From a virus, in IMG/VR virus record IMGVR_UViG_3300044643_000612, positions 1 to 64,000 of that record: 64,000 nt of DNA. One strand, written 5' to 3'. A program made the position numbers and the translations under genes. Shown piece after piece: positions 61,609-64,000 of this stretch. Under the pieces are notes generated by a model. It was not told where the DNA came from. It searched no databases and saw only the letters and a program-made list of their open reading frames with translations. Every line of letters begins with the position of its first letter. Positions within the stretch are counted from its first letter, which is position 1.

Positions 61609-61846
61609 GGAGGTTCACGCCGGGAGACTGTACCGGGTAAAAAAGACTAAACTTAGCGAGTATGATTTCGTAAAGGGCGGCGGACATCTGTGGGTAGCAG
61701 AAGAGTCTGGAAACCTAATGTCGGGGAACGTTTACGTCGCAAAGGCCTACTTGTTTCGTTCTGTGGCTACTGGAGTAGTCATTCGCGCGAACGGAATACT
61801 TTTTGACTCTCTTGGGCTGGAGGAAGCCGATGGCGGCGACACCTGA
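61598..61846 (+). CDS. Hypothetical protein (82 aa)
   Basis: The start overlaps the GcrA-like gene by 11 bases. KVKEVHAGRLYRVKKTKLSEYDFVKGGGHLWVAEESGNLMSGNVYVAKAYLFRSVATGVVIRANGILFDSL looks like a small beta barrel. It ends inside the VRR-NUC gene. AT-richer codon use than the main genome. Not recognised. Confidence 0.56.
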   Translation: MKVKEVHAGRLYRVKKTKLSEYDFVKGGGHLWVAEESGNLMSGNVYVAKAYLFRSVATGVVIRANGILFDSLGLEEADGGDT

Positions 61847-62138
61847 GAAGAAGGTTAAGGCCCGGGTGGAGGCCATGCTCAAGGCGAAGGGGGTTTACTA
61901 TTTCTTCCCGGCTACGCATGGTTACGGGCGGAGCGGAGTCCCTGACATCATCGCCTGCGACCGGGGACGGTTCCTCGCCATAGAGTGCAAGGCTGCGGGG
62001 GGTAAGCTTACGGCGCTACAGGAGCGGGAGATTACCCGTATTAGAGTAGAAGGCGGCGTGGCACTCGTCATCCACGAAGACAACTTCCACGAGTTAGAGC
62101 AAGCGTTAGAGCAAGCGCTGGAGTATACATGCCTTTAA
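61830..62138 (+). CDS. VRR-NUC domain nuclease, second copy
   Basis: ATG 61830 after GGAGGA gives 102 residues: EKKVKARVEAMLKAKGVYYFFPATHGYGRSGVPDIIACDRGRFLAIECKAAGGKLTALQ. The PD...ExK core is present. It is clearly diverged from the copy at 41023 and lies, like it, beside GcrA-like and polymerase genes. Confidence 0.85.
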   Translation: MAATPEKKVKARVEAMLKAKGVYYFFPATHGYGRSGVPDIIACDRGRFLAIECKAAGGKLTALQEREITRIRVEGGVALVIHEDNFHELEQALEQALEYTCL

Positions 62139-64000
62139 TTGTCTGCGATTTCGAAACATATTACGACTCCGACTTCAGCCTGTCTAAGATGACGACGGAG
62201 GAATACATCCGAAGTCCTCGGTTTGAGGTGATCGGCGTAAGTGTAAAGGTGGATAGCGAGCCGCCCCGGTGGTTCTCCGGTACCATGCCTGACATTCAGA
62301 AGTGGCTCCTGCGCTTCCCGTGGGAAACCTCCATCGCCGTGGCGCACAACGCTGCCTTCGACATGGCCATCCTGAACTGGAGTTTTGGCATTATCCCGGC
62401 GAGGATCGCGGACACGCTCTCTATGGCTAGGGCGATAGACGGACCGGATGCAGGCAACAGCCTCGCCAAGCTGGCAGAGCGCCACGGTCTCGGGGCCAAG
62501 GGCAACGAGGTTATCAACGCGCTAGGCAAACGCCGACTGGATTTCTCCACGGCACAGCTGGCGGCTTACGGCGAGTACTGCTGCAACGACGCCGACCTGA
62601 CCTACGACCTGTTCCAGAAGCAAGTGGCGGGCTTCCCGCTAAGCGAGCTCCGGGTGATCGACCTAACCATACGCATGTTCACCGAGCCGGTACTGCGACT
62701 GAGCCAACCGGTGTTGGACGGCCACCTCACTGAGGTGCTGGACCGCAAGGCGAAACTTCTCGATGGGTTAGGCGTCTCCACCGAAGCCCTTATGAGCAAC
62801 GACAAGCTGGCTAAGGTCCTTGCAGACCTAGGTGTGGAGCCCCCGACTAAGACCAGCCCCACCACGGGCAAAGTGGCTTGGGCCTTCGCTAAGAACGACG
62901 AGGGGTTTAAGGCCCTACTGGAACATGAGGACGAGCGCGTCCAAGCCATTGTGGCTGCGCGGCTAGGGATCAAGTCCACGTTGGAGGAGACCCGGACCGA
63001 GCGGTTCATCGACATCTCCAAGCGCGGGACCCTGCCCGTACCCCTACGCTACTACGCAGCTCACACGGGGCGCTGGGGTGGCGACGACAAGATCAACCTC
63101 CAGAACCTGCCGCGCAAATCCCCACTCAAGAAATCCATGCGCGCGCCCAAGGGGTTCCTGTTGGTGGACTGCGACTCCAGCCAGATTGAAGCGCGGACCC
63201 TAGCTTGGCTGGCCGGACAAGACGACCTTGTCCAGTTCTTCGAGAAGAACAACGCCGAGATCGCGGCGGGCGTTGCCAAGGCGGACATGCAGTTCGACCC
63301 CTACAAGATCATGGCCTCCGGCATCTACGGGGTACCTGTGTCGGAGGTGACGGACGACATGCGCTTCGTAGGCAAGACAACTATACTGGGTTGTATTGCC
63401 GAGGGAACCCCGGTACTAACTGATCGCGGCTGGGTAGCGATTGAGGAGGTAACTACCTCTGACCGGCTGTGGGACGGAGAGGAGTGGGTATGCCACCAAG
63501 GGCTAGTGCAGAAAGGCACCAAAGAAACGTTGAGTCTTTGCGGGCTTTGGTTGACGCCGGATCACAAAGTGTTGTGCGGGACCCAGTGGCTGCAAGCGCA
63601 CTCAGTGGTTCAAGACAGAAATACCCTCTCCCAAGCGTTGGATACAGGAGCGGTCAGCTGGTTGTGTCCGGATACGTCAAAGGGCCAAGGAGAGGGGTAC
63701 TATCCATCATCGTGCGGTGCGACTGCGGGTTCCCAGAATACACCGTTGATAGGCACAACTTCAAGGACTTCAAAAGCACCCGATGCCCCCTCTGCGGTAG
63801 ACGGGAAGGACACCGAAAACGTTATTGGAAGTATATATCGGCGCTCCCCGACACTGCGCACCGAGAGCGACTGCTCAACCGACTATCGGCTGCTATCAGC
63901 CGCTGCCACGCACCCAATAACCGGATGTACGCAGACTACGGAGGTAGGGGTATCGCAGTATACAAACAGTGGAGAGCTGACCGCGCCGAGTTCCTACGGT
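62129..64000 (+). CDS. polA: Second family A DNA polymerase with an intein (runs off window)
   Basis: ATG 62129 opens a frame with no stop to the window end. The first 421 residues are polymerase: exonuclease VCDFETYYD, AHNAAFDMA, YCCNDADLTY; polymerase RYYAAHTGRWGGDDKINLQNLPR and motif A LLVDCDSSQIEART. It is then interrupted after RFVGKTTILG by an intein starting at Cys (63392), just before the expected GYGMG of motif B. The intein site differs from that in the 41350-44511 polymerase. Motifs B and C lie beyond the window. Confidence 0.87.
   Translation, partial: MPLIVCDFETYYDSDFSLSKMTTEEYIRSPRFEVIGVSVKVDSEPPRWFSGTMPDIQKWLLRFPWETSIAVAHNAAFDMAILNWSFGIIPARIADTLSMARAIDGPDAGNSLAKLAERHGLGAKGNEVINALGKRRLDFSTAQLAAYGEYCCNDADLTYDLFQKQVAGFPLSELRVIDLTIRMFTEPVLRLSQPVLDGHLTEVLDRKAKLLDGLGVSTEALMSNDKLAKVLADLGVEPPTKTSPTTGKVAWAFAKNDEGFKALLEHEDERVQAIVAARLGIKSTLEETRTERFIDISKRGTLPVPLRYYAAHTGRWGGDDKINLQNLPRKSPLKKSMRAPKGFLLVDCDSSQIEARTLAWLAGQDDLVQFFEKNNAEIAAGVAKADMQFDPYKIMASGIYGVPVSEVTDDMRFVGKTTILGCIAEGTPVLTDRGWVAIEEVTTSDRLWDGEEWVCHQGLVQKGTKETLSLCGLWLTPDHKVLCGTQWLQAHSVVQDRNTLSQALDTGAVSWLCPDTSKGQGEGYYPSSCGATAGSQNTPLIGTTSRTSKAPDAPSAVDGKDTENVIGSIYRRSPTLRTESDCSTDYRLLSAAATHPITGCTQTTEVGVSQYTNSGELTAPSSYG
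63392..64000 (+). other. Intein in the second polymerase (incomplete)
   Basis: Block A: CIAEGTPVLTDRGWVAIEEV, then TTSDRLWDGEEWV; block B: LCGLWLTPDHKVLCG with Thr-x-x-His. It is clearly related to the split N-intein at 43279. After about residue 90 the frame stays open for more than 110 codons but becomes Ser/Thr-rich and unlike a Hint or LAGLIDADG domain, exactly where an HNH-like protein is encoded in another frame. Confidence 0.8.
63490..64000 (+). CDS. HNH/zinc-ribbon-type homing endonuclease overlapping the intein out of frame
   Basis: ATG 63490 opens a frame, shifted relative to the polymerase, that is open for 170 codons to the window end. It encodes GQLVVSGYVKGPRRGVLSIIVRCDCGFPEY...STRCPLCG (CxCG and CxxCG zinc ribbon) and then RLLNRLSAAISRCHAPNNRMYADYGGRGIAVYKQW, the ...RC..P....Y..YGGRGI.V...W block of phage homing endonucleases. 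The C-terminal catalytic part is off the window. The true start could be a later GTG (63586 or 63664). Confidence 0.68.
   Translation, partial: MPPRASAERHQRNVESLRALVDAGSQSVVRDPVAASALSGSRQKYPLPSVGYRSGQLVVSGYVKGPRRGVLSIIVRCDCGFPEYTVDRHNFKDFKSTRCPLCGRREGHRKRYWKYISALPDTAHRERLLNRLSAAISRCHAPNNRMYADYGGRGIAVYKQWRADRAEFLR

Follow-up and report, generated by a model that had tools for sequence, protein, structure and literature searches.

The window analysed here is a 64,000-nucleotide stretch of viral DNA, bases 1-64000 of IMG/VR record IMGVR_UViG_3300044643_000612 (84,337 bp), and it ends inside the gene of a phage family-A DNA polymerase (PolA). We read the record beyond base 64000 and found that the PolA/intein frame runs stop-free past the window end, giving an ORF at 62129-64837 that encodes a 902-aa precursor. 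The N-extein matches polymerase profiles (Pfam DNA_pol_A, 2.7e-25, and DNA_pol_A_exo1, 3.3e-07; PHROG phrog_17, 1e-85). Within the intein lies a second gene, read in another frame. The features are as follows, those beyond 64000 being given in contig numbering.

62129..63391, + strand: N-extein of the phage family-A DNA polymerase (3'-5' exonuclease and polymerase), ending ...FVGKTTILG
63392-64234 (63392..64000 in the window), + strand: contiguous class-1-type intein of 281 codons in the polymerase frame, C1...HN/C
63392..63433, + strand: intein block A, CIAEGTPVLTDRGW, with the nucleophile Cys1 at the intein N-terminus
63476..63484, + strand: purine-rich GGAGAGGAG, a possible Shine-Dalgarno sequence 5' of the nested start
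63490 (ATG) to 64231-64233 (TAA), + strand: nested out-of-frame HNH endonuclease gene, 247 aa (activity inferred)
63542..63571, + strand: intein block B, GLWLTPDHKV (TxxH at 63554-63565), dual-read with the nested gene
63601..~64158 (63601..64000 in the window), + strand: intein-frame spacer between the Hint halves, unstructured in the model, near-neutral and without stops
63718..63795, + strand: zinc ribbon of the nested protein, CDCG...CPLC (Cys77, 79, 99 and 102; all four invariant in 54 sequences)
63937..63954, + strand: YGGRGI block of the nested HNH protein
~64045-64125, + strand: DRxDNNxGYEPGNIRF...NxxNRR core of the nested HNH protein, 3' of YGGRGI and beyond the window
64235-64837, + strand: C-extein (CGYGMG...), beyond the window

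A small ORF at 61803-62138 has the look of a VRR-type nuclease (PDIIACDRGRFLAIECKAAGGKLTALQEREITRI) and overlaps the polA start; a similar ORF lies 5' of polA in locus L091.

The final 234 bases of the intein fall outside the window, and its C-terminal junction, ...GPIIVHN/CGYGMG, is at 64234. The nested gene is in the -1 frame, position 1 of its codons being position 3 of the polymerase frame, and has GTG codons at 63469 and 63484 as alternative starts upstream of the ATG. It overlaps block B (TxxH) and block F of the intein as well as the spacer, and its TAA overlaps CAT AAC, the codons of the last two intein residues (HN). The original prediction, made from sequence alone, stated that the polymerase/intein frame is open over 62129-64000, that a second frame open from 63490 encodes a zinc ribbon and a YGGRGI homing-endonuclease block, and that at least 170 codons are read twice. 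All three statements held: both frames were confirmed, the second is a complete 247-aa gene, and the dual-coded stretch exceeds the estimate at ~247 codons. Two outcomes would have refuted the prediction, namely a stop after 64000 followed by a separate C-intein gene, or a sequencing frameshift that fuses the two frames. Neither occurred. Upon extension of the contig the intein frame reaches HN/C and GYGMG stop-free and the other frame completes the endonuclease, and the architecture is kept in ~95 loci. The dual-frame observation is real, being neither chance nor a frameshift artefact.

The intein appears competent to splice, although splicing itself is inferred. Cys1, TxxH, the terminal Asn and a Cys, Ser or Thr at +1 are present in all 61 parsed elements, with HN in 60 of the 61, and T55 and H58 of block B are invariant in an alignment of 50 inteins. 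In an AlphaFold2 model of the intein-frame product of a close relative (L005), the two Hint halves (residues 1-94 and 248-282) are predicted with pLDDT ~96, and the spacer joining them is unstructured (pLDDT ~30). The best Foldseek matches of the model are mostly intein splicing domains (Mtu RecA, gp41-1, Npu DnaE; probability ~1, E 3e-3 to 2e-2). Intein length is near-constant at 277-299 aa. A Pfam scan of the intein gave no match, and block A matches TIGR01445 intein_Nterm only weakly (8/50 members). TIGR01443 intein_Cterm has no match on the window's own record; hence, curated intein profiles miss this intein. The criteria of a class 1 intein are met by the splicing residues, the Hint fold, the continuous frame from N- to C-extein and the existence of intein-free homologues. 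The intein also matches phrog_93, a PHROG named 'endonuclease', which is an annotation hazard: in Salmonella phage Ijeoma the whole polymerase (XEM82277.1, L014:942-4040) is named endonuclease, and the true nested HNH gene is unannotated.

The nested protein matches the PHROG HNH endonuclease family phrog_374 (5e-28), as do all 54 relatives scanned, and contains in order a zinc ribbon with four invariant Cys, YGGRGI and DRxDNNxGYEPGNIRF...NxxNRR. The model of the HNH-frame protein has a mean pLDDT of 87. Its comparison with solved structures (PDB) returned nothing significant by fold or sequence, and a Pfam scan of the nested protein (n = 54) found no match to an HNH model, the matches being mainly to CapR in the zinc ribbon region (16/54). 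Where the HNH motif usually has its first His, this protein has Arg (DRxD). Due to this replacement and the lack of a significant match among solved structures, HNH catalysis is inferred from profile matches, and cleavage activity is likewise an inference. As for expression, 62 of 69 elements have an ATG at either of two neighbouring positions in the stretch encoding the intein motif WDGxEWV, versus 28 expected from synonymous recoding of the intein, which supports internal initiation. Shine-Dalgarno matches across relatives are not enriched over synonymous recoding and are no better than the intein codons impose. We infer that an internal start near 63490 makes a separate HNH protein.

Selection on the two frames was compared among homologues of group 1, the loci with the HNH gene in the -1 frame, by counting substitutions according to their effect in both frames in 17 independent pairs. 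In the N-terminal overlap, the intein frame is constrained (omega_intein 0.30, 0.20-0.39), with omega_HNH at 0.89 (0.64-1.11). The relation is inverted over the spacer, where omega_HNH is 0.26 (0.22-0.30) and omega_intein 0.87 (0.76-1.00), and returns in block F and the C part (omega_intein 0.29, 0.16-0.45; omega_HNH 0.72, 0.47-1.00). Column identity of the two frames swaps at the edges of splicing blocks B and F in 71 non-redundant group-1 elements. Thus it is the intein frame that selection maintains in the splicing blocks, and the HNH frame in the spacer.

We also compared stop codons with the number expected from synonymous shuffling of the HNH codons. The intein frame of the window spacer has 0 stops versus 4.1 expected, and none of 500 shuffles was stop-free. 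Across the 71 non-redundant group-1 spacers the intein frame has 0 stops versus 242 expected, in contrast to the third frame of the same elements, where 975 stops are found versus 969 expected. Stop differences between pairs are absent as well (0 versus 87 expected). Group 2, whose HNH genes belong to another family and use the remaining alternative frame, gives the same picture (0 stops versus 492 expected; spacer omega_HNH 0.30, omega_intein 1.29). Free-standing HNH genes used as controls (n = 32) have 346 versus 400 and 251 versus 244 expected stops in their two alternative frames. Since these controls lack strict stop avoidance, the avoidance is a property of nesting and not of the HNH protein family. 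In the intein frame of the spacer, amino acids are nearly free to change and the frame must stay open. The frame-specific omega values, the stop avoidance and the disordered model together support the remaining structural claim of the original prediction, that a nested endonuclease gene gives rise to the spacer as a by-product, and that the spacer is kept open for translation.

The arrangement is widespread, being found in well over a hundred other phage sequences, some of them from well-known phages of Salmonella and E. coli. Searching IMG/VR with the HNH protein returned seven relatives (49-84% identity), all with the same architecture, and a scan with an HNH profile yielded 391 related IMG/VR stretches, of which 80 were kept, together with 17 places in GTDB genomes. 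All 95 group-1 loci have zero polymerase-frame stops across the HNH gene and 7-36 stops in the third frame, and the nested gene is full-length in nearly all relatives. A tblastn search of phage GenBank gave 123 records at ≥80% coverage, with matches lying inside genes annotated as 'DNA polymerase' or 'intein-containing DNA polymerase', many of them in Salmonella phages. We verified the frames in Jerseyvirus PVP-SE2 and Ijeoma, Dhillonvirus Pubbukkers, Pseudomonas phage MR14, Vibrio phage 97.13 and EBPR siphovirus 2; the nested gene is absent from the annotation of every annotated record among them. The different HNH family of group 2 was found in a PolA intein at eight GTDB loci (Lachnospiraceae, Allobaculum, Actinomycetaceae and others), which are likely prophages. 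A scan with the group-2 family brought its nested loci to 52 in total, in PolA (several sites) and in SF2/ResIII helicases.

Several single loci extend this range. Locus L083 has two PolA inteins, each with a nested HNH gene; the second (L083:4302-4994 of IMGVR_UViG_3300043399_000459; GKL/CLAQGT...VHN/CENVVQ) carries a different HNH type in the other alternative frame. The intein of an SNF2-like helicase at L158:2351-3046 contains an out-of-frame HNH gene of a third type, and the nested arrangement may possibly be a general one. Loci L045 and L090 combine the nested-HNH intein in PolA with a downstream mini-intein before CVQALA, in which no endonuclease was seen.

We found that 77 of 80 related polymerases or contigs are intein-free at the site of the window intein, a share that is biased upwards by a search that ranked contiguous matches first. 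The PolA of L189 is 87% identical, has the empty site GKTTILG/SGYGMG and is alignable at the DNA level on both sides. This closest intein-free polymerase has Ser and not Cys at +1 (AGC versus TGT); the site might be a resistant one, or the difference might reflect the co-conversion tract of the insertion. In L004 and L068, the 2.8 kb before the intein and the 3.0 kb after it match at 99.1-99.3% identity, but the two intein alleles are only ~50% identical, and ~75 bp of the upstream extein flank have been replaced as well. This is the pattern that homing with co-conversion leaves. The evidence is computational only and rests on metagenome contigs; chimeric assembly is not fully excluded. In L006, a TGG-to-TGA change creates a stop midway through the HNH gene and leaves the intein frame intact, which fits a decaying endonuclease within an intein still obliged to splice. 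The intein and its nested gene are likely to be a mobile unit, with homing and cleavage inferred.

Taken together, the data are, with high confidence, best explained by a mobile, contiguous phage PolA intein whose homing endonuclease is not an intein domain but a separately started HNH gene nested in the -1 frame. In the proposed mechanism, a ribosome translating PolA would read through the whole intein frame, and the Hint domain would splice out the intein together with the disordered spacer. An internal start near 63490 would yield the HNH protein, which is predicted to cut intein-free PolA alleles at the insertion site; repair would then copy the intein and the nested gene as one. What stands against this explanation is the absence of direct evidence for splicing, HNH expression or cleavage, all three of which are inferred. 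The unenriched Shine-Dalgarno matches, the Arg in the HNH motif, the lack of a significant solved relative of the HNH model and the metagenomic origin of the L004/L068 contrast also weigh against it.

Alternatively, programmed -1 ribosomal frameshifting could produce a fusion of N-extein, N-intein and HNH protein without a separate start. The HNH frame of group 1 is indeed -1, the relation that a -1 slip needs. However, slippery heptamers of the form X XXY YYZ occur near the nested start in only 10 of 71 loci, the nested frame stays open for a median of 7 codons 5' of that start, an ATG is present there far more often than expected (62/69 versus 28), and in group 2 the HNH gene occupies the other frame. 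We regard this alternative as very improbable.

The HNH protein could also be dead or domesticated, no longer a homing enzyme, within an intein inherited vertically. The mid-gene stop of L006 and the replacement of the catalytic His by Arg speak for this. Against it stand the constraint on the HNH frame of the spacer (omega_HNH 0.26 in the 17 independent pairs) and the full-length genes of nearly all relatives, the recent allele replacement between the near-identical genomes L004 and L068, and the patchy presence of the element, the sampled close polymerase relatives being mostly intein-free. There is little to recommend this reading.

A further possibility is that the intein-frame spacer is itself functional, for example as a regulated linker, with both products of the overlap under selection throughout. 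The near-constant intein length (277-299 aa) would fit, and the upper confidence limit of omega_intein only just reaches 1.0. However, the spacer omega_intein is 0.87 in group 1 and 1.29 in group 2, the spacer is modelled with pLDDT ~30, and constant length follows from the HNH gene anyway. This too is very hard to sustain.

Phage group I introns often carry HNH genes, and the nested gene could accordingly sit in an RNA intron inside the intein, whose excision from the mRNA would leave no spacer to translate in the intein frame. Neither the window element nor any of seven related loci gave an Rfam match, and an intron would not need a stop-free intein frame, yet stops are strictly avoided in that frame only; this leaves the explanation almost no room. 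An ordinary split intein with a free-standing endonuclease between its halves, suggested by a neighbouring site that is truly split in L004, L006, L053 and L068 with an HNH gene bridging the halves, is ruled out almost entirely at the window site by an intein frame that stays open throughout, both in the window element and in every relative at the site, as is a sequencing frameshift by conservation in ~95 loci and in independently sequenced cultured phages.

The neighbouring site deserves attention on its own. The second PolA intein, inserted after GRWGG or its equivalent and ending HN/S, is split in those four loci: a stop closes the N half, the C half has a start of its own, and the two are bridged and overlapped by the HNH gene (L004:1627-2577, L068:1621-2571, L006:1792-2577 and L053:807-1643). 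Locus L091 has a contiguous mini-intein without HNH at the split-intein site. A nested and separately started HNH gene is plausibly a step towards split inteins, although this is an inference. On a bolder reading, which we favour by a narrow margin, overprinted inteins are distinct and evolutionarily stable mobile elements: Hint inteins of phage PolA and SF2 helicases would have taken up HNH genes two times or more, with both alternative frames used, and the endonuclease would thereby have become a gene of its own without breaking the intein. Since the endonuclease of such an element needs nothing from the intein frame, split inteins with a free-standing endonuclease could arise naturally from it, as the HNH gene that bridges the split inteins of L004, L006, L053 and L068 suggests.

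For the very probable reading of a nested homing endonuclease gene, the consequences are several. It would be a third way for an intein to carry an endonuclease, neither as an in-frame domain nor as the neighbour of a split gene, and it points to a concrete way by which a contiguous intein could become split. The locus is one DNA stretch where selection passes cleanly between reading frames, and an example from nature of a selfish gene forcing a long, nearly unselected linker onto a replication protein. Moreover, the nested gene is unannotated in many GenBank phage genomes (~120 records), and the cultured phages among them make the arrangement directly testable.

In the open-access literature we found no paper with an out-of-frame endonuclease inside a Hint intein (subscription papers and preprints were outside the scope of this search). 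The claim of the original prediction that the arrangement is undescribed nevertheless needs a qualifier: in the nearest published case, an out-of-frame HNH gene was described in 2025 for the ShiLan element of a mycobacteriophage DNA methylase, in an insertion ending TAAC (Arsenault, Gosselin and Gogarten 2025, PMC11855218). As in the window, the HNH gene is hidden out of frame and the insertion reads through in the host frame. However, ShiLan lacks a splicing domain and splicing motifs and its insert is thought to be retained in the methylase, whereas the window element has a Hint domain; the ShiLan HNH protein does not match either of the two HNH profiles built here. Free-standing phage HNH proteins of phrog_374 share the order of zinc ribbon, YGGRGI and DRxDNNGxYEPGNxR with the nested protein, but both alternative frames of their genes contain stops, without avoidance of the kind seen in the nested elements. 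A full-length LAGLIDADG intein, such as the helicase intein of Salmonella phage PVP-SE2, likewise combines a Hint domain in a replication gene with an endonuclease. There, the endonuclease domain is in the intein frame, whereas in the window the HNH gene is in the -1 frame and the intein-frame spacer is modelled as unstructured. Fractured genes, in which an endonuclease gene lies between the two parts of a split intein (Dassa et al. 2009, as cited in PMC3229294 and PMC10448857), resemble the window element in that the homing endonuclease is a separate intein-associated gene and not a domain. In fractured genes, however, the host gene is broken in two and the product arises by trans-splicing, whereas the window intein is contiguous and its endonuclease gene is overprinted on it.
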